Assembly: GCA_948144175.1 (NCBI GenBank)
Contig: CANXME010000532.1
Span: 4,339,001-4,403,000 of the forward strand
Origin: Closterium sp. NIES-65
Taxonomy: Eukaryota; Streptophyta; Zygnematophyceae; Desmidiales; Closteriaceae
Direction: 5' to 3'
Length of the DNA: 64,000 bases
The notes below the pieces were generated by a model. It was not told where the DNA came from. It saw nothing but the letters and a program-made list of their open reading frames with translations, and made no database searches. Position numbers and translations under genes: made by a program. Every line of letters starts with the position of its first letter. Positions within the stretch are counted from its first letter, which is position 1. Positions 21,261 through 60,382 of the stretch are shown in pieces.

Positions 21261-24223
21261 AGGCGGTGTACGGCCAGTACAAGCCCCATGCCTGATGTAG
21301 TTGCTATATACTTCGCCACCCTCACAGCAGCTGTCCAGTGAATAAGACGGTGTCTCCCAGTCGCAACAAAGGGAGAGAGGACGCTCAGGGGAAAGGCGAG
21401 GTCCGGACGAGTACAAGTCATCAGGTACGTGAGGCAGCCCACAAGCTCTACGTAGGGTCCACTGGACTCAAAGGGCTCGTCGAGAAAAGGTCCGCTGAGT
21501 CTATGGTCAACGGCAACAGGAGTGGGTTGTGTGGCAGAGAACTGAAGCCGAACCGCTGAAGGACCTGCTCCGTGGCTGTGAGAGTACGATGGTGCGAGTG
21601 GCTCTGTCCCTAGTGATTTGCAAGCCAAGGTAGCGGCACAGCTCACCGAGGTCAATTCTCGTGTGTCTCTTCTACAGTTCGGACTTCACCTCAACCAGAG
21701 CAGCCCTGTCTGCTGTAGCCAAGACCAAGTCGTTGATGTAGATGAGGACGAAGAAAGTTTTGGGCCCAAGAGAACGAGCAGCGACGGGTCGGCAGACGAA
21801 GGACGAAACCCGAGGGCAGCAAGAGTGGTGCATAACATGTCGTGCCACTCACAGGGTGCATAGCAGTGATCGTAGACTGGTTGACTCAGGCTCCACTAGG
21901 TCCCAGGCAGCAAGTGCCAGTAAAGCAAGAAGGGTGGCGTAGCCAAATCTCCTCATGTGGCCCTAGAGAAAGGCAATGGAGAAGTCGAGAGAGTGCAACT
22001 CGTAGTCTCGCTGTGCTACAATGTGAAGGCTGTCACTTATTCCATTGCTGACTTCATGGTCGCTATCCACTGATAGGTCGACTGCCCTGGCTCTGTCTCA
22101 CGGTGCAAGCGAGGAGTCGGTATGTCAAGGGCGACGGGGTCTCCCTCGGGGGCTAGCAGCATGGCACAGAGATGGGGAGAAGCGGCTGCCAAGAATTCTA
22201 GCTCAAACCACCTATTCTCTAGGACGTCACAGCCAAGGGCACACTCACCCCCGGCGGATAGAGGACGGCCAGCCACCACGCGCATGTCGTAGTCAAGGCG
22301 GCGGGTGGCAGAAAAGTCAGAGACGGAGGCAACAAGAGCCGCAACAGATAACGAAGAAGGACGAGGGTTCGTGACAAGAGACGCAAGAACACAAGAGACA
22401 ACAAGGCGAGTTGTGCGGTAGTAGTCAGTGATAGGGTGAGAAGAGGAGGCAGTAAGGGACGACTGAGGAGGCGTCGGGAGAACAGACAGAGGCGGAGAAC
22501 GACGGGGACTAGAACTACAAGACAGTGCAGAGGTCGTCAAAAGGAGATGAGGGACGAGCACGTGGGGAACAATGAACTGTCCAGTCATGCGGGACAACAA
22601 GATGAGACGACTGTAACTGAGGAGGAGCAAAAACATCCGGGGACGAGTCCGGAGGAGGAAGACCGTGTGCAGTAGGAGGCAGTGAGTGGTCCAGAGAAGG
22701 AGGGAATTCCAAGGGTCCGGAGGCCACTCACAGGCAGGAACAACAGCTGCAAAACTGACGGCTGCGGTGTCTGCTACTGCTGCTGCTGCTGCTACTGCTG
22801 CTGCAACTCCTCCTGTTGCTGCTCCAGCTCTAGTCTCTCCTGCGCCAACCCCTCCTGCTCCTCGCACTCAAGCCGAAGAAGAGCCTGGTGATAAATCGGG
22901 TAGTGGTGGGGAGGTGGAGGAGGTGCTGCAGTAGAAGTGTCTCTACCGAGAGTCTCCTCAGAACAGGCACCTCCAGCTCCAGCACCCCCAGAACGATCAC
23001 CCCCAAAACTTGCACCTCAAATGCAAGCACCCTCAACTCTAGTACTCCCAGAAACGGCACCACCAATACCAGCACCCTCAGCTCCAACACCCCCAGAATT
23101 TGCACCTCCGGTGCCAGTACCCTCAACTCTAATACCTTCAAAAGTAGCACCCTCATTGTCAATACCATCAGCTCCAGCACCCTCACAGCCAGCACCTCCA
23201 ACACCCCTAAAGTCCACTACAACCTGTCGCGGTAGTTTTGGCGGCTTTTGCGATGACTTCAAGGATGACTATGGGGAAGGGGGTGGTACCCGACATACTA
23301 CCAAGGGGAGAGTGGTAGCGTGGGACACACCAGACGGGGCAGGACCAGGGGGGGCGGGTGTATCGGAGGAGCGGGAACAGGAGGAGGAGAGGGGGCGAGG
23401 AAAAGGGGAGGAGGGGGAACCGGGAGTCCTCGACAGGGGTACCGGATGTAGCAGCACACAAACTCGTCGAAACAAACGTCACGAGAGTCAAGGAACCGGT
23501 GGAGGGGCAGGTGGTAAAAGGTGTAGTTAGAGGAGCCCACGGGGAAACCAAGGAAGAGACATGGGAGGGCGCGAGCCAAGAGCTTGTTCCCGCAAGGATC
23601 GCGGACCGACGCAAGGCAGCTCCACACACGAAACTCCAACGCAACACCAGGGGACTTGGTCCAAAGACTGGTCTGTGAAGCCTTTGGCCATGAGGCACGG
23701 GGTCTGAGGTTCAGCTGGTGGGCGGCGTAGCGAACCGCGTAGGGCCACAGAAAATGGGGCGCTAGGGCATGGATTATGGAGGTGCGGCCGATTTCCATGA
23801 CCAAGATTATGCGGCGCTCAGCAACCCCATTATCTTGTAGGGACTCCGAAAGCGTCTAGGACTGGGTGATGCCCTGCGCGCTACAAAATTCGGCAAGAAT
23901 GGCGAAGCAAAACTCACCCACACGGTCGGGGAAAAGACACCTGACACGAAGGCCTCGAGTGGTCTCAGTGGCTAGCAACCACCAGATCAGCGTAGAATTC
24001 ACGTCGGACTTCTTTGCAACGGTGGTATAGTGGGAGTAGTTGTCAACGACCACCAGAAAGAAGCTCTCCCTCTCAGGCCCAGGGCGAGGGGCGAGGCCCC
24101 AGACGTCCAAGTGGAGAGTCTGGAGGGTGTGGTGGCCGGACGAAGGGAGGAAGAGTGAGGAGTGGCGCGCAGCTGACCATCGGCGCAAGGAGTACACGAC
24201 GGCACAAGCGAATGAGGGAGCGA

Positions 24224-24568
24224 TGTCAGAATCCCAACCACTAGACCTTTGGGATAAAAGGGCTTGTTAAGTAGCGGGTCAGTGCGCCCATAACCCCCCA
24301 GGACACCGAGCATGTAACCCTTCCCTAGGATCAATCGGGGATCACCAGTGGACCTCTGACACCCCCCCGCACTAGGATGCCCAAAGTGCACACACCGAGG
24401 TTCGAACCCGAGACCTTCGCTCTGATACCATGTCAGAATCCCAATCACTAGACCATTGGGATAAAAGGGCTTGGTAAGTAGCGGGTCAGTGTGCCCATAA
24501 CCCCCCAGGACACCGAGCATGTAACCCTTCCCTAGGATCAATCGGGGATCACCAGTGGACCTCTGACA
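24224..24568 (-). mobile_element. TRIM (miniature LTR element), complete
   Basis: 345 bp in total: two 138-bp direct repeats (24224-24361 and 24431-24568) around only 69 bp of internal sequence. Seen directly: repeats begin TGTCAG and end CTGACA; the flanks carry a perfect 5-bp duplication AGCGA (24219-24223 and 24569-24573); on the minus strand TGGTATCAGAGC (24419-24430) follows the 5' repeat immediately, an exact Met-tRNA-type primer site; a G-run (C-run on plus, 24362-24368) precedes the 3' repeat as a polypurine tract. No coding capacity. It sits inside the GAG-pre-integrase region of D, so it is younger than D. The LTR-primer junction also reads as a tRNA-like structure (24395-24455). 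Confidence 0.9.
24395..24455 (-). promoter_or_regulatory. tRNA-like structure with A and B boxes in TRIM
   Basis: Minus strand, in order: A-box-like TGGTCTAGTGATTGG (24441-24455), close to the A box of tRNA-Glu; anticodon-type arm TCTGA-CATGGTA-TCAGA with a perfect 5-bp stem and 7-nt loop (24421-24437); T-arm TCGGG-TTCGAAC-CTCGG (24394-24410) containing a near-consensus B box GGTTCGAACCT. No acceptor stem pairs. The A-to-B spacing is 47 nt, near tRNA spacing. Pol III promoter function is inferred, not shown. Confidence 0.55.
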
Positions 24569-25214
24569 AGCGACGCAATGACGCGCAAGAGACCTGAGAC
24601 AATACGCTGGCTAGCCATGCTGTGGAGGCGTGGGAGGGACGGGTGACCAAGATGGTGGTGCCATTGGAATGTTGGGTAGGAGAGGGACCTACTGGAGTAT
24701 AATGCAACTACCTGACCAGTCGCAGCTACCTGGGGGTACGCAGTGTGGTGTCTAAGGAGCGCAGGTAGGTAATAAAGTCAGCAGTGCGGTGAAACGCGTC
24801 TAGGTCGGGAAAGAGAAACGGCAAAAAGAGGCGACCAAGAGAGCGAAGGTGGGAGTGGAATAACGTGTCTTAATTGCAGCGAGCAGGTCCTTGGCAAATC
24901 GAACTCGAGAGAAGTGAGCCTCCTTAGTCTCGGAGAGAAGGCTGGCGAGGGCAATACAGGCCGCAGCGTCACGCGACGGCCATACCCAACGAGCTGTATG
25001 GGCCTGTCGAAGTGCGCCTAAGTCGCCTCATCCGGCTCAGCACCCAAGGAAGCAGGGGGGGGGAAGGCTTGGGCAGGTCACCGGAGGCGTGCGCCTAGAG
25101 GGTATCATTATCTTGGCGTTGGCTCTTGAGGAACCACTCGGCACGAATAAGCCAGGAGGGGAACTCTAAGACTCTACCCTCAGCATCAAAGCGGAGTATG
25201 CGAGGGGCTGCCAT

Positions 25215-26301: not shown

Positions 26302-26423
26302 TGAGAAAACTAAAACGAGAATGGTGCACTAAGGAATGGAATGTGGTACAAATATGAAACCCTAGAAATGTGTACCCCATATAGGCTACCCCACTACAGC
26401 CTACAGAACATTATGATTTGACA
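26302..26423 (-). repeat. 3' LTR of copia E
   Basis: 122 bp, TGAGAAAAC...TTTGACA on the plus strand. Shares the family core TACCCCATATAGGCTACCCC. The polypurine tract complement (CACCCCCATAGGCAAAGTGG) follows at 26424. Confidence 0.92.
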
Positions 26424-26631
26424 CACCCCCATAGGCAAAGTGGGGGAGAACAAGGGGTCACAAGACCAGTCAAGCAGAACAAAGTAAAGCTCGGGGTGGA
26501 TCACAAAGTCACCATACATTCCGAGCACAAGTTCAAGGCCAGAAGGCCAGTTCACATGCAGTAGCACATAGATATATAAAAGGCTAAACAAGCAAGAGAA
26601 GGAGTATATATATGTGACAGTACAAACAAGG

Positions 26632-29600
26632 TCAAGAAGTGAGCAAGTGAGGCAAGGCAGGCACAAGACCAAGCTGAGTAGAGAAGCACTGATGATCACA
26701 AGGCGCAAGTGCCTTAGTGAAGATATCAGCAGTGTTGGCCTCAGAGGCCACGTACGCAAGTCGCAACTGACCACGCTGCTGCAGCTCACGAGCAAGAAAG
26801 TAGCGGAGAGCAATGTGCTTCGTTCTGTGCTCCAGGCGCTGCTCCCGACACAAGGCCAGCATGGCTTTGTTGTCTACGTACAGCACTGGAGGAGAACGAG
26901 GTGGCTCTCCGAGGTCAGTCAGCAGGTAGGTGAGCCAGCGAAGCTCCTGAGCAGCCATGGCTCTAGCGTAGATCTCAGCCTCACAACTGGAGCCGAGAAC
27001 GGAAGACGAGCGAGTAGCCCTCCACGAAACAGAGCCTGAACCAAGGCTGAAGGTGTAACCCTGTGACGACCGCTGCGTAGCCTGGTCGTCAGCCCAAGAA
27101 GCGTCTGCCTGCCCAGTGAGGACCACTGGACTCTGCCCTCCAAGCACTAGCCCCATGCCCGACGTACTGCACAAGTAGCGCAACACCCTCTTCGCTGCAG
27201 CCATGTGCTCCGGTCTGTGTCTCCCAGGAGCAACATAGCGTGCAAGAATGCTAAGAGGGTATGCAAGGTCAGGTCGTGTGCAAGTCATCAGGTACATGAG
27301 GCAGCCAACAAGCTCTGGGTACGGGCCACTCGACTCTACAGACTCATCCGAAGGCAGAGCTGAGAGCGAGTGGCGAGTAGGCAGAGGAGTGGCCTGAGGC
27401 GAGGAGTACATGAAGCCGAAGCGCTGAAGGACCTGCTGCACCATGTGTGACTGAGTCAAGGTAATGGTGCGGCGTGCTCTGTCCCGGGTGATCTGCAAGC
27501 CAAGGTAGTTGCGCAGTTCACCCAAGTCTGTGCACGTGTGTCTCTTCTGCAGCTCGGACTTCACGTGGGGGAGTCCAGCAGTGTCAGCAGTGGCAAAGAC
27601 CAAGTCGTTGACGTACACGAGGATGTAGAACGGCGGCAAAGAGGTGTCGGTGCGCAGAAACAGCGACGGGTCGGCAGTAGAGGGAGCAAACCCAAGAGCC
27701 GCAAGTGTAGTCCTCAGTGTGTCGTGCCACTCACGCGGTGCCTGGCGGAGACCGTAGACTGGCCGCCGGAGGCTCCACTGGGTGCCAGGAGGAAAAGTCC
27801 CAGTGAAGCCAGGTGGGCGTCGCAGCCAGATCTCCTCGTGCAGGCGACCCTGCAAGAAAGCAGTGCTGAAGTCAAGAGAGTGAAGCTCGTAGTCGCGTTG
27901 AGCGGCTATGTGCAGCAGCACGCGAAGAGTGGTCATCTTCGGGGTGGGAGAGAAGGTCTGAAAGTAGTCAACTCCCTGCCGCTGACTGAAGCCACGAGCC
28001 ACTTACCGCGCCTTGAAGACAGGTGGAGAACCTGGCGGCCGCTTCACCCTGAAGATCCACATGCCACTAACGATGTTCGCCCCAGGTGGGGGAACCGCGT
28101 CAACGTAGGTGCCTATGGACTTCCAGGAAGCCATCTCTGCATCCATAGCTGCCTACCACTGAGAGGAGTAGGGACCCTCTACGGCCTCCGCGTAAGAGCG
28201 CGGAGTCGGGATGTCAAGTGCATCCGGGTCTCCCTTAGGGGTAAGCAGTACGGACACGAGATGAGGTGAAGCAGCAGCCTGACACTGGAACTCCTCCTGC
28301 CTGTCCTCAAGGACGTCCGTGCCAAGGGCACACTCACCCCTGACGGACGGAGGACAGACAGACTCAGACTCAGCGACAAGACTAGCTGCGTAGTCTAGAC
28401 GACAGCGAGCAGGAAAGTTGACGAGCTCAGCAACTAGGGCAGACGCAGCAGTGGACTCAAAAGAAGGGTTTGTGACGACAGCAGCAAGGAGACGCGTGAC
28501 AGTAGGACTGGCAGCACGAAGAGAGTCCGACTCCGGGTCAGCAAGAGCAGGAAGAGAAGACTCAGGAGGAGAAGGCAAAGGGGCACGCAGAGGAGCAGTG
28601 GACGGACGCAGAGATATCCGGTGCATGCCAGGGTCAGGATGAGGACACTGACGCGAACCGCGACCACTTGTGTGAGCAGCACGGACAGGCGACGCAGGGT
28701 GAGACGCAGGCTCACGACGCTCAGCAAGACCTCCAGTAGGACCAGTGTAGGGAGACGGAGTAGGCAGTGGGAAGGCCCGCAGTAGCTGTAGCTGTGACGG
28801 GTCAGGCGGTGGACACTCTAAGGGAGGAGGAGGACTAGTAGAAGGCGGGAGACCAAGAACTTGCTGAAGAAGCGGAACGAAGTACGGCCGAGGCCGCGCG
28901 GCGACTCCAGACACAGCAGGGACAGCACCAGCACCCCCAGCGGCAGCACCAGCGCCAACAGTACCTCCATCTGCAGTACCTCCAGCAGCACCAGCAGCAC
29001 CCGCAGCAGGACCGCCGCCAGGACTGACAGCAGTAGCCTCAGCGCCAACACCCTCAGTAGCTCCAGCTCCAGTGGTACCCGCAGGCCCAGCAGCTCCCGC
29101 ACTCCCAGTGTGAGCACCTCCTGGACCGGCGGCACCAGCACCCTCAGCAGCCGAAGAAGCACCAGCTCCAGAAGAACGCCTCCAGCGCCGGGCAAACCAC
29201 TCGCGCAGCTCCTGTGAAGAGAGTGGCTCCCGCCGAGACGAAGCACCCGGAGAACCTCCAGGCCCAGCACCGCCAGACGCCACACGAGCAGGCCCAGCTC
29301 CTTCAGGCTCCGCACCCCCAAGCTCAGTACCTCCAGGCGTAGCACCCCAAGGCTCAGCACCCCCAAGCGTAGCACCCCTATGCTCAGCACCCCCACGCTT
29401 AGCACCCACAGGCCCAACACCCCCAGTCTCAGCACCCCCAGGCTCAACACCCCCAGTAGTACCACCCGAAGGCCCAGCACCCCCAGGCGTAGCACCCACA
29501 CGCCCAGTACCCCCAGAGTCAGCACCCCCAGTCTCAGCACCCGCAGCAGCACCAGAGTCACGAGTAACCTCGACAGGCTCGACTGCGTCTACCTGGGACA

Positions 29601-32600
29601 CACCTGAAGAGGCAGGACCCTGAGGGGGGAGGGGGTCTACCGGGGGGGGACCTGGCACAAGAAAGAGCGGTGGCGGGGGGAGGGAAGGAGTGCGGTAGGG
29701 GAAGAGGCGGTAGTAGGGGACCGACTCGTCAAACGTGACGTCCTGGGAGGACAGAACACGACGAGAGGTGGGGTGGTAGAACTGCCACCCTGGCGCGTCA
29801 GGGGGGAAGCCAAGGAAGACGCAAGGAGCAGCACGAGGGAACAGCTTGTCCGCAGACAAGTCGCGGACAAACGCCCGAGATCCCCAGACACGGAACGCAG
29901 ACGCATCGCCTACCTTCCCCATCCACAGCAAAGCTGGGGAGGTCTCCGGCATGGAGACCCTGGGGTGAAGGTTGATCTGATGCGCCGCGTACCGAACCGC
30001 AAACGGCCACAGAAAATGGGGGGCAGCCGCATGCATCATGGACGTACGGGCGACGTCCATGACCATGCCAATGCGGCGCTCAGCAATCCCATTTTGCTGT
30101 GGAGAGTCCGGAAGCGTAAAGGTCTGGCGGATGCCTCGCGCACGACAGTAGGCTCGCAGAAGGCCAGAGGAGAACTCTCCGCCTCTGTCAGAGTGCAGAC
30201 GCAGAACAGGAAAGTCCGAGCCGAAGCTCCTCCTGAGCTGGAGACGAGCTGCGCGGATCCAGTCGATAAACACCTCAGTGACATCACCCTTGCTGCGCAA
30301 GGGGAAGACTGTGGTGTAACGCGAGTAGTCGTCAACCACCAGCAGGAAGTAGCGCTCGTGACCCTATCCACGGACGCGGGCCGGGCCCCACACGTCCATG
30401 TGAAGCATCAGCAGCGGGGCCTCTGTCGGGGGAAACTGAGAGGAGTGAGGGGCAGCGCGCATCCGCCCCTCGACACAGGGGACGCAGGTGGGGCCAGGCC
30501 CCGGAGGAAGGGGAGGGAGGGACCGGGGAAGACCAGAGACAAGGACACGGGAGGCCATGCCTCGGAGACGAGGCAGGGAGGGGTGACCAAGGCGGTGGTG
30601 CCAGAGAAGAGTCTCGTGAGACAGGAGGCGACACGAGCAGGGGGCAGACTCAGGACCAGACCTGGACGCTGCTGCAAACACCTGACCCGACGCAGCTACC
30701 TGACCAGACGCAGGGACAGGAGGAGACTCAGTGGTCAGGGTGTACAGGCTCGACCCCGACCGAGGTGCCGGCCTGTGCGAGCGTCCGAGCTGTGGGTCAC
30801 CCGCAGACTCGCAGGAGTGAACTGGTGAACCCCCGCATCTTGTAGGTCAGCACCACTCACCAAGTTCGTAGAGAACGAGGGGAGGTAAAGACTAGACAAG
30901 GTGCCAGAGGGGGCCGCCGGACACGGGAGGACAGTGGAGAAGTGAGAAAGGACAGGACCCCCAGAGGGGCCTGCCAGGGAGATTGCAACCCGCCGACCAA
31001 GCGGCGTGAGTGTGGTGCGGTCTCGAAAGAAGGAGCGAGAAGCCCCTGAGTCAAGTGTGAAGGTGAGGGAGGCCGAAGCCGACGCGATACCTGCGAGCGC
31101 AGACTCACCAGCACCTGAGGACGCAGACGCACTGGCACGTAGAGCAACAGCCTCACTGGCACCTAGAGCAGCAGCCTCACCAGTACCTAGAGCAGCAGTC
31201 TCAATGCCCGGGTCGGGCGGGAAACACCGGTAACAGTCACCCTCATCACTAATAGACACAGCATACATGGCAGAAATGATAGCATTAAAATCAAGATCAT
31301 AGATGGCAACTCCCGCCCTAAACAGCTCGCCCCAGCGAGGGATCTCCGTGGCCTCCGGGAACTGGTGACGCCACGCGTCCGTCAGGCGGCCAAAGCAGCG
31401 CTAGGTGGGGTGCGCACCCCCACACTGCTCACCCGCACGGTCGCCGGTGCGCAGGATGTAGGTGCACAGACCAAAGCCCCTACCCCGCTGGCGTGCAGTG
31501 TACCACTCAAGGAGCTGCTGAGGGGACAGGGTCTCACGACCGCGCTGCTACTGCTGGCGCGGACCACCACCGGAGCCACTCCTCTGCGTAGACCCGCGAC
31601 CAGCTCCACCGCCACCCCCGCCGCCTCCGCCGCCTCCGCCGCCTCCGCTACTACCGCCGCCTCCGCCGCCTCCTCCACCACCACCTCCGCCACCTCCGCT
31701 CCCACCGCCACCGCCGCCGCCGCCTCCGCCTCCACTGCCGCCACCGACACCTCCACCCCCACCTCCACTCCCACCGCCACCCCCACTCCCCCCGCCGCCT
31801 CCACCTCCACCTCCACCGCCCCCGCTCGCTCCTCCATTGCCCCTTCCCCACTTGCCCTTGCCAGAGCGGCGTCTCCCGCTAGGGGCAGACGCCGCACCGA
31901 CCGACTCAAGACCAAGGAGGTCGGCCGCAGCAGCAGAGGCAACAGAGGGCAGAAGGGGGGAGGGGGAACACCCCTCAAAGATGGGGGTGCGCGGGTCACC
32001 ACGAGAGGCCCCTACAGCGACTTTGCTCTTCTCGGCCGCTAGGAGGGACTTCTCGAGGAGGTCAGCAGTGAGAGTGGTGGGACAGACTGAGAGGAAGTGG
32101 TCCCTGACTACGCGAAGGGAGTCAGGGAGGCGAGTGACTATGTAGTAGAGAGTGATGTACATGGGGGGGGGGGGGTTCTTGGCGCAGAAGTCAGCAGGAA
32201 GCGCAGCGCGGTAGCGAGTGTCACTAGTGGGGAGGTACGTAATGAGTTCAGCGACAGTGGGAAAGGCAGCAAGGTCAGGAAAGAGGTACGGTAGCATGAG
32301 ACGGCTCAGTGCAGCAGTGGCACGGGAGGAGTAGCATGCAACTACAGCGTCGTACAAGGTCTGAGCACTCTTGTACTGACTAAAGTGCGCACGCTCAGAG
32401 GTAGGGAGGTGGCGACACACAGCAAGACGTGCAGCAGCATCGCGCATGGCCCATTGTGAGCGAACAGTGGCGTCAGCATCAGCAGCAGGAGCAGGAGAGG
32501 CACCAGAGGTGAGGTCAAAGAGGGAGAGACCGTCTGCCCTATCGCACTGTAAGAACAGCTGCAGGTCATCTACCGAGACGTCAAAGTCAATGGCTCGACC

Positions 32601-32636
32601 CTCGGCGTCAAAAGCGAGGACACTAGGGGTAGCCAT
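26632..32636 (-). pseudogene. gag-pol region of copia E (fossil)
   Basis: Minus strand order: Gag start MATPSVLAFDAEGRAIDF near 32634, Gly/Ser-rich run about 31600-31860, non-canonical Cys/His region about 31380-31480, protease core TLDSGASRSFF near 31050, GAG-pre-integrase HHRLGHPSLPRL near 30590, integrase about 29900-30430, long hinge with GGAEPGG-like units about 28170-29800, reverse transcriptase about 27250-28170, RNase H about 26632-27130. Closest in sequence to A and F but clearly a sister subfamily. About five breaks. Confidence 0.87.
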
Positions 32637-32689
32637 GACAGCAGTAGACTAGCAGCGCACACTTAGGGAAAGGGCAGTGCAGTGACAGA

Positions 32690-33545
32690 GGCGCTGTGCT
32701 TACCGGACGGGGCTGCTCGGGCGGCTTGGAGGTAGGGCGGCTCGGCGGCTCGGTGGTTCGGTTGCACGGCGGCTCGGCTGCAGGGCGGCTCGGCTGCTGG
32801 GCGGCTCGGTTGCAGGGCGGCTCGGCTGCTCGGCTGTTGGGCGGCTCGGCTGCAGGGCGGCTCGGCTGCAGGGCGGCTCGGCTGCTCGGCTGTCCGGCTG
32901 CTCAGCTGCTTGGCGGCTCGGCTATGCTGCTGTACGGCGGCGCGGCGGTCGGCTGCTCGGCTAGGTGAGGCGGCTCGGGCGGCTCGGGTGGCGGGCGGTG
33001 CTGCAGCAGATGACGAGGCCGCAGGGAAGGCGGCGAGGACCGCAGGTAAGGGTGGCGGGGACCGCAGGTAAGGGCGGCGAGGACCGCAGGTGAGGGCGGT
33101 GGGGCCGCAGATAGGGCGAGTGGGCCGCAGGTAGGGCGGCTCGGCCGCAGGAAGGGCGGCGGGGCCGCAGGTAGGGCGGGTGGGCCGCAGGTAGGGCGGC
33201 GGGGCGGGGCCGTAGGTAGGGCGACGGGGCCGGGTCGAAGGTAGGGCGACGGGGCCGGTACGCAGGTAGGGCGACGAGGCCGGGGTCGGAGGTGGGGCGA
33301 CAGGGCCGGGGTCGCAAGCAGGGCGACGGGGCCGGGGCCGGGGCGCAGGTAGGGCGACGGGGCCGAGGCGCAGGTAGGGCGACGGGGCCGGGGCCGTAGG
33401 TAGGGCGACGGGGTCGCTAGGGCGACGAATCAGGGGCCGCTAAGGCGGCGCGACTTGGACGCTAGGGCGGCTCGACGAAGTCAGAGAGGGGAGCGCGACT
33501 CGGGCTGAGCGCGCTCCGGGCAGGAAAAAAAACTTTCGACTTGGT
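32690..33545 (-). repeat. GC-rich tandem-repeat leader of copia E
   Basis: Between gag and the primer site. 32700-32960 is built from GGCTCGGCTGCAGGGC-type units; 33000-33420 from GTAGGGCGACGGGGCCGG-type units. Architecture matches the leaders of A, F and K although the unit sequences differ. Confidence 0.7.
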
Positions 33546-33588
33546 GGGCCCTAAGCCCAGTTCCCACGAGGGAACCTGCTCGATACCA

Positions 33589-33710
33589 TGAGAAAACTGA
33601 AACGAGAATGGTGCACTAAGGAATGGAATGTGGTACAAATATGCAACCCTAGAAATGTGTACCCCATATAGGCTACCCCACTACAGACTACAGAACATTA
33701 TGATTTGACA
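33589..33710 (-). repeat. 5' LTR of copia E
   Basis: 122-bp partner of 26302-26423, three differences. Followed inward on the minus strand by TGGTATCGAGC, a hairpin GTTCCC...GGGAAC (33560-33575) and GGGCCC (33546-33551). Confidence 0.92.
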
Positions 33711-33715
33711 ATATC

Positions 33716-34379
33716 ATATCAAACTTAGAAGCAACGGAATGTGGAGTGACTACCGTAAGAGGAAGGGATACATGTATGCAACCCTAAATGTGTTATATCC
33801 CTTATACCGTCATACCCCGGATATAAGCGCCACCCTCGGATAAGCGCCTGGCGCTTTTAATTGGCGTGTGGCGCTTATATCCCCTGCTCGATTATAAGCG
33901 CACCCCCTGAAAAAACTTGTTTTATTATAAGCGCACGTAAACTTATTTTTTTGAAATGTGTTCAAAACGCTTTAACGATTTCTACTTTAGCAGGCAGATG
34001 TTTTGCAGATTAGGTTCCCTTCACATTCGGACCCTGCACTGGATTCGGGTCCAGTCAGCAGGAGCTGTCATGAGCTGTCAGGAGCTGGATGTGAGTCAGA
34101 TTGGGTGTACCACCTCCCTGCGCGCGCGAGAATTTCACAGACGACCCCATGTAACTTCGTCTCGATTGAAAAGGCAAGCACGAGATCTACAGTTTGGTGT
34201 TCAAAAATATATAAAAACATATATGTCATTTTATAAACGCCGGCGCTTATAAATTTACTCGATTATAAGCCCACCCCCCTAAAAAAACCTGCTTTATTAT
34301 TGCCCCCCATGGGGGTATATCCGGGGTATGACGGTAGCTAACCTCACTGCAGCCTAACAACAATATTTATAGTTTGACA
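33716..34379 (-). repeat. Old LTR (H) split by E and by a MITE
   Basis: Minus-strand LTR remnant of the short-LTR family. Its right part (34337-34379, ending GTTTGACA) and left part (33716-33804, continuing as TGATATC at 26295-26301) align with the LTRs of F and G, including the TAGGCT(G)CAGTGAGG core. The TA-flanked MITE (33807-34334) sits in the middle and E is inserted close to the left terminus. C-runs after 34379 look like a polypurine tract, so it was a 3' LTR. The rest of its element is not recognisable. Confidence 0.65.
33807..34334. mobile_element. TA-flanked MITE, copy 1 (Tc1/mariner-pogo-like)
   Basis: 528 bp with perfect 19-bp terminal inverted repeats CCGTCATACCCCGGATATA, flanked by TA on both sides (33805-33806, 34335-34336). 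Subterminal sequence carries about six TAAGCGC motifs in either orientation, and the right end has a CCCCCATGGGGG palindrome. TA target and termini recall pogo/Tigger-type elements (inference). No transposase is encoded. An ATG-initiated frame of 98 codons (33956-34252) also stays open in copy 2, but nothing else supports coding. Copy 2 at 47660-48185 is about 97 percent identical. Confidence 0.85.
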
Positions 34380-34444: not shown

Positions 34445-34573
34445 TGTGAAGTAAAGAAAACAGGAATGAAATGACTAAGGAAAGATTGGGTACAAATACA
34501 ACCCTAGAAACCCTGTACCCCATATGTGCTACCCCACTATAGCCTACAGTAACTATGTCATATAAATCTGACA
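34445..34573 (-). repeat. 3' LTR of copia F
   Basis: 129 bp, starts TGTGAAGTAAAG and ends AAATCTGACA on the plus strand; identical to 41739-41867. Confidence 0.94.
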
Positions 34574-34779
34574 CACCCCCATAGGCAAAGTGGGGGAGAA
34601 CAAGGGGTCACAAGACCAGTCAAGCAAAGCAAAGCAAGCTCAGGGTGGATCACAAAGTCACCACACAGTCCGAGCACAAGAGTAGGGCCAGAGGCCAGTT
34701 CACATGCAGGAGTACAGACATATATATAAAACTAGACAAACAAGAGCAGGCATATATATATGTCACAGTACAAGTGAAG

Positions 34780-37700
34780 TCAAGAGGAGAGCAAGTGAGG
34801 CAAGACAGGCACAAGACCCAGCTGGGTGCAAAAGCGCTGATGGTCACAAGGCGCGAGTGCCTTGGTGAACACATCAGCAGTGTTGGCCTCAGAGGCCACG
34901 TACGCAAGTCGCAACTGACCACGCTGCTGCAGCTCACGAGCAAGGAAGTAGCGGAGAGCAATGTGCTTCGTTCTGTGCTCCAAGCGCTGCTCTCGACACA
35001 AGGCCAGCATAGCCTTGTTGTCTACGTACAGCACTGGAGGAGAACGAGGCGGCTCTCCAAGGTCAGTCAGCAGGTAGGTGAGCCAGCGAAGCTCCTGTGC
35101 AGCCATGGCCTCGGCGTAGATCTCAGCCTCACAACTGGAGCCGAGAACCGAAGACGAGCGAGTAGACCGCCACAAGACAGAGCCGGAACCAAGGCTGAAG
35201 GTGTAACCCTGTGACGACCGCTGCGTAGCCTAGTCGTCAGCCCAAGAAGCGTCCGCGTGGCCGGTAAGGACCACTGGACTCCGCCCTCCAAGCACTAGCC
35301 CCATGCCCGACGTACTGCACAGGTAGCGCAATACCCTCTTCGCTGCAGCCATGTGCTCCGGTCTGTGTCTCCCAGGAGCAACATAGCGTGCAAGAATGCT
35401 CAGAGGGTATGCAAGGTCAGGTCGTGTGCAGGTCATCAGGTACATGAGGCAGCCAACAAGCTCTGCATACGGACCACTCGACTCTACGGACTCATCCGAA
35501 GGCAGAGCTAAGAGTGAGTGGCGAGTAGGCAGAGGAGTGGCCTGAGGCGAGGAGTACGTGAAGCCGAAGCGCTGAAGGACCTGCTGCACCATGTGTGACT
35601 GAGTCAAGGTAATGGTGCGGCGTGCTCTGTCCCGAGTGATCTGCAAGCCAAGGTAGCTGCGCAGTTCACCCAGGTCTGTGCACGTGTGTCTCTTCAGCAG
35701 CTCGGACTTCACGTAGGCGAGTCCAGCAGTGTCCGCTGTGGCAAAGACCAAGTCGTCGACGTACACGAGGATGTAGAACGGCGGCAGGGAAGTGTCGGTG
35801 CGAAGAAACAGCGACGGGTCAGCAGTATAAGGAGCAAACCCAAGAGCCGCAAGCGTAGTCCTCAGTGTGTCGTGCCACTCACGCGGTGCCTGGCGGAGAC
35901 CGTAGACTGGCCGTCGGAGGCTCCACTGGGTGCCAGGAGGGAAAGTCCCAGTGAAGCCAGGTGGACGGCGAAGCCAGATCTCCTCGTGCAGGCTACCCTG
36001 CAAGAACGCAGTGCTGAAGTCGAGAGAGTGAAGCTCGTAGTCGCGCTGAGCGGCTATGTGCAGCAGCACCCGAAGAGTAGTCATCTTCAGGGTGGGAGAG
36101 AAGGTCTGAAAGTAGTCAACTCTCTGCCGCTGACTGAAGCCACGAGCAACGTACCGTGCCTTGAAGACAGGTGGAGAGCCCGGCGGCTGCTTCACCCTGA
36201 AGATCCACATGCCACTGACGATGTTCGCCCCAGGAGGGGGAACCGCGTCAACGTAGGTGCCTGTGGACTTCCAGGAAGCCATCTCTGCATCCATAGCTGC
36301 CTGCCACTGAGAGGAGTAGGGACCCTCTACGGCCTCCGCGTAAGAACGCGGAGTCGGGATGTCTAGTGCATCCGGGTCTCCCTCAGGGGCAAGCAGTACA
36401 GACGCGAGATGAGGTGAAGCAGCCGCTAGACACTGTAACTCCTCCTGCCTGTCCTCTAGGACGTCCGTGCCAAGAGCACACTCACCCCCGACGGACGGAG
36501 GACAGACAGACGCAGACTCAGCAACAAGACTAGCAGCGTAGTCGAGACGACAGCGAGCAGCAAAGTCAACGAGCTCAGCGACTAGAGCAGACGCAGCAGT
36601 GGACTCAAAAGAGGGGTCAGTGACGACAGTAGCAAGCAGACGCGTGACAGTAGGACTCGCAGCGCGAAGAGAGTCCGACTCAGGGTCGGCAAGCGCAGGA
36701 AGAGAGGACTCAGGAGGAGAAGGCAAAGGGGCACGCAGAGGAGCAGTGGACGGACGCAGAGACATTCGGTGCGTGCCAGGGACAGGAGGAGGACGCTGAC
36801 GCGAACTGCGACCACTAGCGCGAGCAGCACGAACAGGCGACGCGGGACGAGACGCAGGCTCACGACGCTCAGCAAGACCTCCAGTAGGACCAGTGTAAGG
36901 AGAGGGAGCAGGCAGTGGAGAGGAAGGCTCCAGCAGGGACTGCGACTGGACAGGCGGTGGACCCTCTACTAGAGGAGAAAGACCAAGAACCTGCTGCAGG
37001 AGCGGAACGAAGTACGGCCGAGGCCGCGCGGCAGCTCCAGACTCAGCAGGGACAGCACCAGCACCCTCAGCGACAGCACCAGCGCCACCCACACCTCTAG
37101 CGGCAGGACCAACAGCAGCACGCACAGCACGAACGCCCTCAGCAGCTCCAGCTCCAGGAGGACCCGCAGGTCCAGCAGCTCCGGGACCGGCAGCACCCGC
37201 ACCCTCGATGGTCGAAGAAGCTCCAGCTCCAGCTCCAGCAGCACCTCTAGACTCAGCAGCACGCCTCCAGCGGCGAGCGAACCACTCGCGCAGCTCCTGT
37301 GGAGAGAGGGGCTCCCGGCGAGACGCAGCAGCAGGAGAAACCCCAGGCTCAGCAGCTCCAGACACAGCACCCCCAGGCTCAGCAGCTCCCAGCTCAGCAC
37401 CCCCAGGCTCAGCAGCTCCCGACCCAGCACCCCCAGACCCAGCACCTCCAGGCACAGCACCCCCCGGCTGAGCACCCCCAGGCTCCGCACCCACCGCAGT
37501 AGCACCCTCAGGCCCAGCACCCCCAGCAGTAGCACCCCCAGGCTCAGCACCCCCGCGCACAGTACCCCCAGAGTCAGCACCCCCAGGCTCAGCACCCGCT
37601 GCAGCACCAGAGTCACCAGTAACCTCGACCGGGTCAACGGCGTCTACCTGGGACACACTTGAGGGGGCAGGAACCTGAGGGGGGAGGGGGTCTACCGGGG

Positions 37701-40700
37701 GGGGAACCGGCACAAGGAAGTCCGGGGGAGGGGGGAGGGAAGGAGTGCGGTAGGGGAAGAGACGGTAGAAGGGGACTGACTCGTCGAACGTGACGTCCTG
37801 GGAGGACAGAACACGACGAGAGGAGGGGTGGTAAAACTGCCACCCTGGGGCGTCAGTGGGGAAGCCAAGGAAGACACAGGGAGCAGCACGAGGGGACAGC
37901 TTGTCCGCAGACAAGTCGCGGACAAACGCCCGAGATCCCCAGACACGGAACACAGACGCATCGCCAACCTTCCCCGTCCACAGCAAGACTGGGGACATCG
38001 CAGGCCGAGAGACCCGGGGGTGAAGGTTGAGCTGATGCGCCGCGTACCTTACCGCAAACGGCCACAGAAAATGGGGGGCAGCCGCATGCATCATGGACGT
38101 ACGAGCGACATCCATGACCATGCCAATGCGGCGCTCAGCAATCCCATTTTGCTGTGGTGAGTCCGGAAGCGTGAAGGTCTGGCGGATCCCCCGTGCACGA
38201 CAGTAGTCTCGCAGAAGGCGAGAAGAGAACTCTCCGCCTCTGTCAGAGTGCAGACGCAGAACAGGAAAGTCCGAGCCGAAGCTCTTCCTGAGCTGGAGAC
38301 GAGCCTCGCGGATCCAGTCGATCAGCACCTCAGTGACCGCACCCTTGCTGCGCAAGGGGAGGACTGTGGTGTAACGCGTGTAGTCGTCAACCACCAACAG
38401 GAAGTAGCGCTCGTAACCCTGCCCACGGACGGGGGCTGGGCCCCACACATCCATGTGAAGCGTCTGCAGGGGAGCCTCTGTCGGGGGGAAGTGGGAGGAG
38501 TGAGGAGTAGCCCGGAGGTGACCCTCAACACAGGGGACACAGGAAGGTCCTGGCCCGGAGGGGAGAGGAGGGAGAGACTGGGGAAGACCAGAGACAAGGA
38601 CACGGGAAGCCATGCTCCGAAGACGGGGCAAGGAGGGGTGGCCAAGACGGTGGTGCCACAGGAGAGTCTCGTGAGACAGGAGGCGACTAGAACAGGGGGC
38701 AGACTCAGGACCTGACCGGGACGCAGCAGCAAGTACCTGACCCGACGCAGCCACCTGACCAGACGCAGGGACAGGAGGAGACTCAACGGTCAGGGTGTAG
38801 AGACTCGACCCCGGCCGACGCGAGAACGTGGCCAGGTGTCGGCCTGTGCGTGCCTCCGTGCAGTGGGTCACCCGCTGACTCGCAGGAGTGAACTGGTGAA
38901 CACCCACATCCTGCAGGTCCGCTCCACTCACCAAGTTCGTAGAGAACGAGGGAAGGTACAGACCCGACAGGGTGCCCGAAGGGGCAGCCGGACACGGGAG
39001 GACAGTGGAGAAGTGAGACAGGACAGGACCCCCAGAGGGGTCAGCAAGGGAGACTGCAACCGGCCGGCCGAGCGGCGTAAGGGTAGTGCGGTCTCGAAAG
39101 AAGGAGCGAGAAGCTCCGGAGTCAAGCGTGAAAGTGAGGGAGGACGAGGACGACTCAGTACCTGAGAGCGCAGTCTCACCAGTACCTGAGAGCGTAGACG
39201 CACTGGCACCTAGAGCAGCAGCCTCACAAGCACCTAGCGCAGCAGTACCAATGCCCGGGTCGGGCTGGAAACAGCGGTAACCCTCATTCTCCTCACTATA
39301 ATCCACAACATACATAGCAGTAAGGATAGCATCAAAATCAAGATCAAAGATCGCTACACCAGCCCTGAGAAGCTCATCCCAGCGAGGGATCTCACTAGCC
39401 CCAGGGAACTGCTGACGCCAGGCGTCCGTCAGGCGGCCAAAGCAGCGCTGGGTGGCGTGGGCACCCCCACACTGCTCACCCGCGCGGTCGCCGGAACGAA
39501 GAACGTAGGTGCAGGGACCAGTACCCCCACCCCTCTGACGCCCAGCGTACCACTCACGAAGCTGCTGAGGCGAAGGGATGTCCCGAGAGCGCTGCTGCTG
39601 CTGCCGCTGCGAGCGCTGGCCACCACCACCGCCGCTACGCTGCTGGGTACCACCCCGATCAGATCCACCCCCTCCACCACCACTGCCTCCTCCGCTGCCG
39701 CCTCCACCGCCTCCACCTCCGCCGCCTCTACCTCCGCCGCTGCCTCCACCACCACCGCTGGCACCACCACCACCATCTCCGCCGCTGCTGCCACCACCAC
39801 CACCACCCCCGCCACTAGTCCCGCCGCCACCCCCACTCCCTCCGCCGCCACCGCCGCCACCGCCACCGCCCCCTCCAGCTCCACCCGCGCCCTTGCCCCC
39901 CTTGCCCTTGCTGGAGCGACGTCTCCCACTAGGGGCAGACGCCGCGCCGACCGACTCAAGACCAAGCAGGTCGGCAGCAGCAGCAGAGGCAACAGAGGGC
40001 AGCAAGGGGGAAGGAGAGCACCCCTCAAAGATGGGGGTGCGAGGGTCACCACGAGAAGCACCTACAGCGACGATGCTCTTCTCCGCTGCGAGGAGGGCCT
40101 TCTCGAGGAGGTCGACGGTGAGGGTGGTGGGACAGACTGCGAGAAAGTGGTCCCTGACGACTCGAAGGGAGTCAGGAAGGCGCGCGACTACGTAGTAGAG
40201 AGCGATGTACATGGGGGGGGGGGTTCTTAGCGCAGAACTCAGCAGGAAGGGCGGCGCGGTAGCGAATGTCACTAGTGCGGAGGTGCGTAATGAGGTCAGC
40301 GACAGTGGGAAAGGCAGAGAGGTCAGGAAAGAGGTAGGGAAGCATGAGACGGCTCAGTGCAGCAGTGGCAGGGGAGGAGTAGCGTGCAACTACAGCGTCG
40401 TACAAGGTCTGAGCACTCTTGTACTGACTGAAGTGCGCACGCTCAGAGGTAGGGAGGTGGCGACGCACAGCAAGACGTGCAGCAGCATCGCGGGTGGCCC
40501 ACTTAGAGCGGACAGCGGGATCAGCATCAGCAGCAGGAGCAGGAGAGGCGCCAGAGGTGAGATCAAAGAGAGAAAGGTCGTCAGCCCTGTCGCACTGTAA
40601 GAACAGCTGCAGGTCGTCTAACCAGACCTCAAAATCAATGGCGCGACCCTCAGCGTCAAAAGCTAGGACACTAGGGGTAGCCATGGCGACGACAGCGACG

Positions 40701-40708
40701 TAGTGCAA
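34780..40708 (-). pseudogene. gag-pol region of copia F (fossil, best preserved)
   Basis: Minus strand order: Gag start MATPSVLAFDAEGRAIDF near 40684; Gly-rich run about 39650-39890; PQQLREWYAGRQRGGG near 39530-39580; Cys/His region near 39430-39520; protease core TLDSGASRSFF near 39120; GAG-pre-integrase near 38580-38690; integrase DVWGPAPV to SDRGGEF to QQNGIAERR about 38150-38460; hinge about 36330-37850, again containing LSPQELREWFARRW near 37280; reverse transcriptase about 35400-36330; RNase H about 34780-35280. Nearly collinear with A. About two breaks. Confidence 0.9.
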
Positions 40709-41700
40709 GCAGCAGGGAAAGAGCTCGCAGTGTCAGTGGGACTGTGCTCACCAGGCAGGGCAGGTCGTGTAGGTATGCAGAAAGGCAGCTCGGGTGCTGG
40801 GCGGCTCGGCTGCTGGGCGGCTCGGGCGCAGGGCGGCTCGGCTCCCGGGCTGCTCGGCGGCTGGGCGGCTCGTGTGCAGGGCGGCTCGGCTCCCGGGCGG
40901 CTCGGCGGCAGGGCGGCTCGGGTCCCGGGCGGCTCGGCGTCGGGCGGCTCGGCTCACGGGCGGTTCGGCTGCTGAGGCGGCTCGGCCAGGAGATGCAGGG
41001 GCGGGGCCGTCAGGTGCAGCGGCGTGTTGACCGGTGCAGTGGCGGGCCGGCAGGTGCAGCGGCGGGCCGGCAGGTGCAGTGGCGGGCCGGCAGGTGCAGC
41101 GGCGGGCCGGCAGGTGCAGGCGGCGGGCCGTAGGGTGCAGTGGCGGGCCGTAGGGTGCAGTGGCGGGCCGGCAGGTGCAGCGGCGAGGCCGTCAGAGGCG
41201 GCAGGTCGCTGGGTGCAGCGGCGGGCCGTAGGGTGCAGTGGCGGGCCGGCAGGTGCAGCGGCGGGCCGGCAGGTGCAGTGGCGGGCCGGCAGGAGAGGCG
41301 GCGGAGCCGCGTCAGGGGAGGCGGCAGGGCCGCGTCAAGGGAGGCGGCGGAGCCGCGTCAGGGGAGGCGGCGGTGCCGCGTCAGGGGAGGCGGGGGAGCC
41401 GCGTCAGGGGAGGCGGCAGAGCTGCGTCAGGGGAGGCGGCGGGGCCGCGTCAGACAGGCGGCGGGGCCGCGTCAGGAGAGGCGGCGGAGCCGCGTCAGGG
41501 GAGGCGGCGGGGCCGCGTCAGGGGAGGCGGCGGAGCCGCGTCAGGGTAGGCGGCGAGGCCGCGTCAAACAGGCGGCGGGGCCGCGATCAGGAGAGGTGGC
41601 GGGGCCGCGTCTGAGGGACAGCGGGGCCGCGAGGGAAAAGGCGACCCGAGGGGGTCGCTAAAAAAAAAGGCGCGCCTCGGGGCGCCCTTCGGTGGGCCCT
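40709..41700 (-). repeat. GC-rich tandem-repeat leader of copia F
   Basis: Reverse counterpart of the leader of A: GGGCGGCTCGG-type units at about 40795-40985, GCAGGTGCAGCGGCGGGCC-type units at about 41035-41300, GGCGGCGGGGCCGCGTCAGG-type units at about 41300-41600. Ends near GGGCCC at 41694-41699 and the post-primer hairpin at 41711-41725. Open frames here are repeat artefacts. Confidence 0.72.
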
Positions 41701-41738
41701 AAAAAAAACGGTCCTAAGGTAGGACCCGCTCTATACCA

Positions 41739-41867
41739 TGTGAAGTAAAGAAAACAGGAATGAAATGACTAAGGAAAGATTGGGTACAAATACAACCCTA
41801 GAAACCCTGTACCCCATATGTGCTACCCCACTATAGCCTACAGTAACTATGTCATATAAATCTGACA
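41739..41867 (-). repeat. 5' LTR of copia F
   Basis: 129-bp identical partner of 34445-34573, adjacent to the primer site. Confidence 0.94.
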
Positions 41868-42360: not shown

Positions 42361-42475
<115 letters not shown>

Positions 42476-47421: not shown

Positions 47422-47657
47422 GATCGGCAGGGACAGGTGAAGTTGCACTGAGGTGCTGCAGGCTTGATAATTGTTGTGCATGCGCTGGTACCGTAATCTC
47501 CTGGCAAAAAGACACCCCCCCCACCCCGCGTAGAGGCCCCCCCAGGTAATCTTTCCGGACTATGGGTTCTTTATTCCGCCTACTTTCGTGAAGACCCTTC
47601 TGTACTTTTTTATTGATAAGAACCCCCCTTTCAATATAATTACACCATTAGACCATA
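47422..47657 (+). other. 3' flank of the glycosyltransferase gene
   Basis: No further gene. Contains TACCGTAATCTCCTGG at about 47489-47504, a relative of the TA-flanked MITE termini, followed by C-rich runs. No convincing polyadenylation signal identified. Confidence 0.4.
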
Positions 47658-47659
47658 TA

Positions 47660-48185
47660 CCCGTCACCCCCCGGATATAAGCGCCACCCTAGGATAAGCG
47701 CCTGGCGCTTCTAATTGGCATATGGCGCTTATATCCCCTGCTCGTTTATAAGCGCACCCCCTGAAAAAACTTGTTTTATTATAAGTGCACGTAAACTTAT
47801 TTTTTTGAAATGTGTTCAAAACGCTTTAATGATTTCTACTTTAGCAGGCAGATGTTTTGCAGATTCGGTTCCCTTCACATTCGGACCCTGCACTGGATTC
47901 GGGTCCAGTCAGCAGGAGCTGTCATGAGCTGTCAGGAGCTGGATGTGAGTCAGATTGGGTGTACCTCCCTGCGCGCGCGAGAATTTCACAGACGACCCCA
48001 TGTAACTTCGTCTCGATTGAAAAGGCAAGCACGAGATCTACAGCATGGTGTTCAAAAATATATAAAAACATATATGTCATTTTATAAACGCCGGCGCTTA
48101 TAAATTTACTCGATTATAAGCCCACCCCCCTAAAAAAACCTGCTTTATTATTGCCCCCCATGGGGGTATATCCGGGGTATGACGG
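47660..48185. mobile_element. TA-flanked MITE, copy 2 (Tc1/mariner-pogo-like)
   Basis: 526 bp, about 97 percent identical to 33807-34334 with about 14 differences and a 3-bp indel in the middle. Flanked by TA (47658-47659 and 48186-48187). The left terminus differs slightly from the perfect repeat of copy 1 (CCCGTCACCCCCC). The 97-codon frame at 47810-48103 corresponds to that of copy 1. Confidence 0.85.
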
Positions 48186-48187
48186 TA

Positions 48188-48765: not shown

Positions 48766-48908
48766 TGTCAAAACATATATTGTTCTGTTCATTTCACTCT
48801 AGGTTGTGTAGGGTTCTTTCCTTAGAGGGTACAACATTTCACTCTCAATAGTCTTGTATCCCCCTCACTTACCTAATCGACATCCTCACCTAGCTAGTAA
48901 TTCTTACA
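48766..48908 (+). repeat. 5' LTR of copia I
   Basis: 143 bp, TGTCAAAACATA...ATTCTTACA. Different in sequence from the A/E/F/K LTRs except for the TGTCA start. Confidence 0.9.
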
Positions 48909-49439
48909 TGGTATTAAGAGCAAAAAGCTCCTTAGGACCGAATTTTTAAAAGGGCCCACCACTACTATTTCGATCTACTCCCCGAGTCGCGCCCCTAGGA
49001 GAAAAACGAAATGCGAAAACGTGCCCTAGGCGAAACGGTTCAATTTTTCTGCCCTAGGTGCGATTTTTCTGCCTAGTCACGTGTGACCCCCCCCTGACCG
49101 CGCCCTAGCTGCCCCGTGCGCCTCTCGCGCAGCCCGTCAGCCCCTACACCCGGTCCCCACTCGTTCCTGCTGCTGCGCGCGCCACTCACGCCGCCCGCCA
49201 GCCCCTAGCACGCACCTGCTGCGCGCTCCTTTTCAGCTGCTCCGCGCGCGCGCGCGCTCCTTTTCAGCTGCTCCGCGCGCACCTGTTGCTCGCCCCTAGG
49301 TGCTAGCTCACAGCCCGCACGCGCCTACTGCTGCTGTGCACCGGCTGCTACTGCTACGTGCCGCCGCTGCTCTGCCACTGTGTCCTAGCCGCGCCACCCA
49401 GCCCGAACTGTCACTGCTACTAGTGCCACTTCAACTAGT

Positions 49440-49970
49440 ACTGCTATAGCTAGCGCTACTCACTGCTGCTGCTACTGAAGCTCCTGCTGCTACAGCTAGT
49501 GCTACTGCTGCTGCTGCTAGTACGGCACTTGCTACTGCTGCTACTGACGCTACTGCTGCTACAGCTAGCGCTACTCACTGCTGCTGCTACTGAAGCTAGT
49601 GCTACTACAGCTATTGCTACTCCTGCTGCTGCTACTACGGCACTTGCTACAGCTGCTACTTACGCTACTGCTGCTACAGCTAGCGCTACTCACTGCTACT
49701 GCTACTGAAGCTCCTGCTGCTATAGCTAGTGCTACTGCTGCTGCTGCTGCTAGTACGGCACTTGCTACTGCTGCTCCTGCTTCGCTGCTGCGCCTGAACT
49801 GCTGCTGCAGTACTGCTGCCGCCTGCATTGCCCTGCTACTGCTGCTGCTACTTGCTGCAGCTGCTCCTCCTTGCTGCTGCTACTTGCTTCAGCTGCTCCT
49901 CCTTGCTGCTGCTACTTGTTGCCGCTGCTCCTCCTTGCTACTGCTGCTGCTACTTGCTGCAGCTGCTCCT

Positions 49971-50034
<64 letters not shown>

Positions 50035-60108: not shown

Positions 60109-60382
60109 TGTCAGAATCCCAGCCACTAGACCACTGGGATAAAAGGGCTTGTTTCAGTAGCGGGTCAGTGCGCCCATAACCCCCCAGGCGAACGCGCCTG
60201 TAACCCTCTCCAGGATCAATCGGGCATCCACTGTGCAGATCTACTGACACCCCCCCACAATGGGAGGCCCAGGACTAAGCACAGCGGCAACGGCCTACAT
60301 GTGCATACACCGGGAATCGAACCCGAGACCGCTCTGATACCATGTCAGAATCCCAACCACTAGACCATTGGGATAAAAGGGC
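60109..60382 (-). mobile_element. TRIM, second copy, truncated
   Basis: Same family as 24224-24568. A full 141-bp repeat (60109-60249, TGTCAG...CTGACA), a 93-bp internal part with C-run (minus-strand polypurine) and primer site TGGTATCAGAGC (complement of 60331-60342), then only 40 bp of the 5' repeat (60343-60382). It lies in the Gag region of K; comparison with A and F shows that host Gag sequence next to the truncated end was lost too, so one deletion removed both. Confidence 0.87.
60309..60367 (-). promoter_or_regulatory. tRNA-like structure with A and B boxes in TRIM copy 2
   Basis: Minus strand: A-box-like TGGTCTAGTGGTTGG (60353-60367), arm TCTGA-CATGGTA-TCAGA (60333-60349), T-arm TCGGG-TTCGATT-CCCGG (60309-60325) with a perfect B box GGTTCGATTCC. 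The A-to-B distance is 44 nt, as in a real tRNA. The B box and T stem match the consensus better than in copy 1. Confidence 0.6.

Follow-up and report, generated by a model that had tools for sequence, protein, structure and literature searches.

Introduction

TRIMs with tRNA-type A and B boxes have been described in fungi and plants as Helenus (TRIMp3), in which the tRNA-like sequence lies whole in each LTR; fungal Helenus elements are linked to Copia, and some prime with the 3ʹ end of initiator-Met tRNA (iMet) (Kojima 2024, PMC10886601). Cassandra has a 5S-type promoter within the LTR, from which transcripts have been reported; the transcript starts and ends within the LTR 5S sequence, which yields an 18-bp repeat at both RNA ends (PMC10886601). 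Its primer site is TGGTATCAGAGC (PMC7215508, PMC10853983, PMC10886601), and multi-LTR tandem arrays occur (PMC7215508). Pol II-type LTR promoters have been described for animal TRIMs (PMC3532108, PMC4558846). In Ty3, iMet is complementary to both the 5ʹ primer site and U3, through its acceptor, T and D arms (PMC5371799).

The original prediction concerned a short element in a 64,000-nt stretch of Closterium sp. NIES-65 DNA, the whole of which we call the window. It held that the LTR/primer-site junction has a tRNA-like structure, suggestive of an internal Pol III promoter, and that a tRNA-type promoter is not a standard TRIM feature. The last point must be narrowed, because the promoter type is known from Helenus (PMC10886601). 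What appears new is confined to the split of the A and B boxes: in the papers searched, which took in passages of main texts and a minority of subscription journals, we found no description of boxes divided by the LTR/primer-site boundary.

Like Helenus, the element has A and B boxes, a primer site, a polypurine tract and 5-bp target duplications; unlike in Helenus, the tRNA-like sequence is divided by the boundary, and solo and 3ʹ LTRs lack box B. With Cassandra it shares the primer site, tandem forms and a predicted Pol III promoter and terminator that would give a short terminal RNA repeat, but here the putative promoter is tRNA-type and split, and no Rfam family, 5S rRNA included, reached its gathering score in the window. 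As in Ty3, iMet is complementary to the primer site and to U3, but the predicted pairing of U3 is with the anticodon arm (families A/B) or the D arm (family D). tRNA-derived SINEs share the A/B box head, to which the element described here adds LTRs, primer site, polypurine tract and 5-bp duplications.

Anatomy of the element

The minus strand at 24224–24568 carries a complete TRIM, noncoding and shorter than 1 kb, with the 138-bp LTRs, 69-bp interior, 5-bp duplication, primer site and polypurine tract that had been predicted for a 345-bp element with all LTR hallmarks. Its features, and a second copy in the window, are as follows.

24219..24223, strand not assigned: left copy of the target-site duplication, AGCGA (sequence)
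24224..24361, minus: 3ʹ LTR, TGTCAGA...TCTGACA (repeat comparison; the element reads on the minus strand)
24256..24266, minus: CAA then TTTT in the 3ʹ LTR, predicted Pol III transcript end and predicted short R repeat (sequence; inference)
24282..24296, minus: U3 segment GGGTTATGGGCGCAC, complementary at 14/15 positions to the host iMet anticodon arm (comparison with host iMet)
24362..24430, minus: internal region, 69 bp (sequence)
24362..24368, minus: polypurine tract, G7 (sequence)
24399..24408, minus: B box/T-arm core GGTTCGAACC (sequence; B box in 52/54 distinct insertions)
24419..24430, minus: primer-binding site TGGTATCAGAGC (complementary without mismatch to the host iMet 3ʹ end plus CCA)
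24431..24568, minus: 5ʹ LTR (repeat comparison)
24445..24455, minus: A box/D-arm half TGGTCTAGTGA, family form TGGTCTAGTGG (sequence and family comparison)
24463..24473, minus: CAA..TTTT immediately 5ʹ of the A box, where Pol III is predicted to start and terminate; predicted R (sequence; inference)
24489..24503, minus: iMet-complementary U3 segment of the 5ʹ LTR, GGGTTATGGGCACAC (sequence)
24569..24573, strand not assigned: right copy of the target-site duplication, AGCGA (sequence)
60109..60382, minus: second TRIM copy, of subfamily B, within a Copia-type element; 40 bp of its 5ʹ LTR remain (sequence comparison)

The direct repeats (24223–24361 and 24430–24568) are 139 nt long counting one flanking base, and are 97% identical. 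The exact Met-tRNA primer site was also borne out: all five host iMet genes fetched have a 3ʹ end that, with CCA added, is the complement of TGGTATCAGAGC, and two of them (L114, L115) have what we take to be the land-plant iMet sequence. The A-box-like TGGTCTAGTGA, the TCTGA/TCAGA pair and GGTTCGAACC are all present as described. The focal copy is nonetheless atypical, being the sole one of 54 distinct insertions without the exact family A box (last G to A) and the exact ACAAGC (it has CCAAGC).

Size and age of family A/B

The exact 36-nt junction spanning box A to the primer site was counted 2,128 times in the host genome (874 Mb, 2400 contigs), and its reversed pattern not at all; hence the similarity among junctions is beyond chance. 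Searches with the focal and 60-kb copies gave at least 42 and at least 77 matching places, the 77 including partial LTR pieces. Subfamily A has LTRs of 138 bp and elements mostly of 342 or 345 bp; subfamily B has LTRs of 141 bp and elements mostly of 375 bp. Three-LTR tandem forms were seen at four loci (L011, L045, L057, L072) and an A/B mosaic at one (L010).

A 5-bp duplication is present with no more than one mismatch in 67 of 78 parsed loci, and without mismatch in 61, scored with element ends free to shift by 3–4 nt to reach TG..CA. Setting aside the 11 loci without such a duplication and 13 that share a left flank left the 54 distinct insertions, a few of which may still be duplicates (L056 and L058 look alike). 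LTR-pair identity is at least 97% in 49 of the 53 pairs compared, with a minimum of 89%. Judged by LTR divergence, the copies sampled (the best matches) are therefore young, and since they are young, conservation among the 54 says little.

The boxes at the LTR/primer-site boundary

The usual A/B junction reads ACAAGCCCTTTTATCCCAATGGTCTAGTGGTTGGGATTCTGACA and then, past the boundary, TGGTATCAGAGCGGTCTCGGGTTCGA(A/T)TCCCGG. Across the 54 distinct insertions, box A, TTTT and ACAAGC are each present in 53, box B in 52, the primer site in 49 and the TCTGA/TCAGA stem in 48; conservation of both boxes over collected copies, which the original prediction had proposed as a check, was thus found. Both boxes are present together in 51 insertions, 33 nt apart in 36 and 36 nt apart in 15, with a split of 14+19 across the boundary. 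In host tRNA-Gln genes the spacing, counted by hand by the same rule, is 32. Box B lies in the interior in 52 of the 54 insertions and GGTTC is found in none of the 54 5ʹ LTRs; membership of Helenus, in which both boxes are within the LTR, was rejected on this count.

One A copy and one B copy were compared: 78 of 80 columns were identical in the block that runs from CAA up to and including box B, against 47 of 62 in early U3 (Fisher p 1e-4, for a block delimited only after the alignment had been inspected); identity was 35/37 in the iMet-complementary part of U3 and 15/49 in the rest of the interior. Recombination, of which the A/B mosaic is an example, could account for part of the identity of the box block.

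These motifs suggest that a tRNA-type promoter recurs in the family, which by motif would be a Pol III-promoter TRIM (TRIMp3). The absence of a TATA box was dropped as an argument for Pol III, since the LTRs of Copia elements A and B also lack one. As a separate observation, a 7-bp inverted repeat surrounds box A in both LTRs (e.g. 24438–24462) and is kept with co-varying arms: ATCCCAA/TTGGGAT in 108 LTRs, ATCCCAG/CTGGGAT in 17 and ATCCCAG/TTGGGAT in 14, over all loci with duplicates included.

Comparison with tRNAs

The proposal that the junction reads as a tRNA structure did not survive comparison with tRNA models. The Rfam tRNA model gave no match at E<=1 in any of 15 TRIM loci, while host tRNA-Gln (70.1 bits) and iMet (54.9 bits) were found. 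ARAGORN recovered 9/9 host tRNA genes and reported no tRNA in 30 A/B copies, in L118–L128 or anywhere in the window. A functional tRNA gene is ruled out, the cloverleaf being recognised by neither program. The TCTGA/TCAGA stem, which had been read as an anticodon-type stem, is broken in 6 of 54 A/B insertions and absent from family D; on these comparisons it is a by-product, in A/B, of the LTR end plus the primer site. To judge from the motifs, what is retained is the promoter portion of a tRNA and not the tRNA itself. The heads of SINEs likewise keep the promoter part of a tRNA.

Which tRNA the A box resembles is less clear. Likeness to an A box holds, but its assignment to Glu is only approximate: against tRNA reference letters, Gln scored 75 and Glu 55. 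A Glu origin was dropped, as this comparison favours Gln, yet host tRNA-Gln genes do not have the same A box (theirs is TGGTGCAGTGG). A DNA search with the Glu letters gave no match. The Glu-type A half has 35 genome matches, and the 30 fetched all lie in TRIM LTRs, by eye. A first form of the Gln pattern had 0 matches, and a looser form had four, all tRNA-Gln by ARAGORN.

Families D and E

Two further families, D and E, were found with a pattern that requires a B box, such that their B box is not an independent test. The LTRs of D are unrelated to those of A/B, with different LTR ends and a different interior. We fetched 28 D loci, which comprise 24 distinct junctions after four identical to another were dropped. 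In the first eight, LTR pairs align over 85–99 bp, start with TGTAAC and end with GTTACA or GTTATA; six of the eight show a 5-bp duplication (three of them by eye): GCTGC (L119), CCAGA (L120), CTTCA (L122), CTGAC (L124), GGTAA (L126) and AAGGG (L127).

The spacing of the boxes is nearly equal in D and A/B although the boundary falls at a different point. In the 19 of 24 distinct D junctions that have an A box, spacing is 33 nt (11) or 32 nt (8); with the A/B definition of where box A ends, each value rises by 1 nt. The boundary divides this distance 17+16 or 16+16, whereas A/B has 14+19. Box A of D departs from the consensus at one usually fixed G. TTTT stands immediately before it, as CCCTCGTTTTGACCCAGTGGG, in 19 of 24 junctions by regular expression, and also in L139, which the expression missed. 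The junctions without an A box, by eye, are L118 and L119, together with L134, L138 and L144, whose LTRs are not of D type.

Three weak matches of D loci to the mascRNA model (E 0.81–0.89) are below the model cut-off and were not counted. A 7-bp acceptor-like pairing over the D junction was considered as a conserved feature and rejected, being perfect in just 4 of 16 scorable junctions.

Family E consists of L123 (twice), L125 and L149, the last two being alike. Its spacing is about 43 nt by hand, the A box is poor in L123, and TTTT lies upstream in all but one copy. Hence E appears to support the idea of a split promoter in part only.

Taken over all families, the motifs favour the predicted internal Pol III promoter: the arrangement with box A closing the LTR and box B past the primer site recurs in subfamilies A and B and in D, whose LTRs differ from theirs, and the fit of E is partial.

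Complementarity to the primer tRNA and chimeric loci

In A/B LTRs, GGGTTATGGGCGCAC is complementary at 14/15 positions to the iMet anticodon arm; in D LTRs, TCCGCTGCGCC, present within the 75 nt examined in 13 of 24 junctions, is complementary to the iMet D arm. When LTRs were dinucleotide-shuffled 300 times each, the LTR–iMet score was reached by 0, 0, 0 and 1 shuffles for A/B, and for D by 0 in four cases and 5 in one. The same test was non-significant for three E stretches, three Copia LTRs and the tRNA sense-strand and tRNA-Gln controls. By this test A/B and D have U3 complementarity to the primer tRNA of the kind in the Ty3-like bipartite primer site, and E does not.

Chimeric loci connect A/B with Copia-type elements and D with Gypsy-type ones. 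L128 combines a Copia-like LTR with the interior and LTR of a B-type element, the joint falling at or close to the primer site; 0 of 500 shuffles reached the score of this Copia-like LTR against Copia A or B, and its score against Copia C was not significant. In the near-identical duplicates L154/L155 and in L156, AT-rich LTRs are joined at the primer site to the interior and LTR of a D element. All three have Retrotrans_gag ORFs, and L154/L155 also protease and RVT_1; hence the partner is Gypsy-type. The LTR of L154 is found again, inverted, ahead of a Gypsy-type primer site, TGGTATCTAGAGC. In L156 the joint also occurs the other way round, with ~63 nt of a D-type LTR end preceding TGGTATCTAGAGC. 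Since the Gypsy-type coding part of L154–L156 is on the strand opposite to the chimeric LTR, these loci are rearranged. Template switching and self-integration among co-packaged molecules is the simplest reading of the chimeras, and genomic recombination is a possible alternative.

Proposed cycle and alternatives

We consider it probable, on motif evidence, that the sole recognised promoter of the TRIM is a Pol III promoter of tRNA type, which the LTR/primer-site boundary divides. Around the observed anatomy, family size, conservation, box spacing, complementarity and chimeras, we infer a cycle of Pol III transcription, R formation, tRNA bridging and mobilisation in trans. With box A at the 3ʹ end of the LTR and box B no more than ~30 bp into the interior, the two boxes would come together at the 5ʹ junction only, and a 3ʹ or solo LTR would have box A alone. 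Pol III would initiate in the 5ʹ LTR, close to the CAA that precedes box A, read the primer site, the interior and the U3 of the 3ʹ LTR, and stop at the TTTT beside the same CAA. The resulting terminal repeat of ~11 nt, CAAGCCCTTTT, could serve first strand transfer, by analogy with Cassandra. iMet would prime at the primer site and might pair with the U3 segment as well, thereby joining the RNA ends as in Ty3. Proteins would be supplied in trans by autonomous elements, Copia-type for A/B and Gypsy-type for D. In plant tRNA genes, transcription often starts at a CAA no more than ~10 nt upstream and terminates at T4 or a longer run of T (PMC11700998); three of the five host iMet genes (L114, L115, L117) have T4 just downstream. 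Counting against this scheme, TTTT lies within ~12 nt of the proposed start in the 5ʹ LTR, and read-through would be needed there.

What might be the significance of dividing the promoter? When each LTR holds a complete internal promoter, 3ʹ and solo LTRs can drive transcription outward, which a split over the boundary would avoid. It would also tie the integrity of the primer site to transcription, because the box spacing runs through the primer site. We suggest more tentatively, and with considerable doubt, that these families represent a class of LTR retrotransposon rebuilt around Pol III and tRNA, with a split promoter firing only at the 5ʹ junction, an R formed from Pol III start and terminator, and a two-part iMet site that circularises the RNA, arisen at least twice in one genome with a Copia-type and a Gypsy-type partner. 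The family lets one test how a Pol III transcript can serve as the genome of an LTR retrotransposon, and thousands of near-identical junctions should ease RNA mapping.

An unlikely alternative, but the most serious one, is an ordinary Pol II TRIM in which the boxes are accidental or are functionless relics of a tRNA-derived insertion. The failure of the Rfam tRNA model to find the junction and the poor fit of family E are consistent with this. However, a spacing of ~33 nt is kept in A/B and D though the split points differ, TTTT adjoins box A in both, and differences between A and B concentrate outside the box block. Chance also predicts few such pairs: 40 Markov-simulated windows averaged 0.025 A..B matches. 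Counting against the split promoter, the strict A..B pattern matches only the 60-kb copy in the window and not the focal one.

The B-box-like stretch might instead be an extended primer site that pairs with the iMet T arm, or a packaging signal, with box A coincidental. The iMet T arm is nearly palindromic, such that its complement resembles a B box, and autonomous elements could share the leader. Nonetheless, we regard this as improbable: GGTTTCGATCC, to which the T arm of host iMet is exactly complementary, has 0 genome matches within the same distance past the primer site, and the three Copia and two Gypsy-type leaders examined have no B box at that place. A primer site followed by a non-G and a B box has 280 genome matches, A/B variants making up most of the 100 listed, and 0 matches for the reversed pattern, a control that ignores the abundance of primer sites. 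The T-loop takes the forms TTCGAAT, TTCGATT, TTCAAAT and TTCGAGT, and thus varies as in tRNA genes. A Helenus TRIM of the published type, with the tRNA-like sequence inside the LTR, would fit the size class, the 5-bp duplication, the tRNA-type boxes and, in some families, the iMet primer (PMC10886601), but given the interior position of box B and the lack of GGTTC in 5ʹ LTRs, we consider it very improbable.

The second copy and other elements in the window

The TRIM at 60109–60382 is more decayed than the focal copy and belongs to another subfamily. We considered its 5ʹ truncation as a relic of an RNA start and dropped the idea: the surrounding Copia-type element lacks ~190 bp found in sister Copia copies, and because this host sequence is also deleted, no such relic is needed.

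The large ORFs of the window with Pfam matches (6 of the 8 scanned) are Copia-type. A single scan of viral contigs gave no match. Three Copia-type elements (34445–41867, 26302–33710 and 48766–54735) have short LTRs of 122–129 bp and primer sites TGGTATAGAGC, TGGTATCGAGC or TGGTATTAAGAGC; in all three, a second iMet-complementary stretch, GGGCCCACC, lies ~40 nt past the primer site. Two copies of ~540 bp (33800–34336 and 47653–48187), 97% identical and with inverted ends of the type ACCGTCATACCCC...GGGGTATGACGGT by eye, resemble a non-autonomous DNA transposon. A (TC)56 microsatellite lies at 42364–42475.
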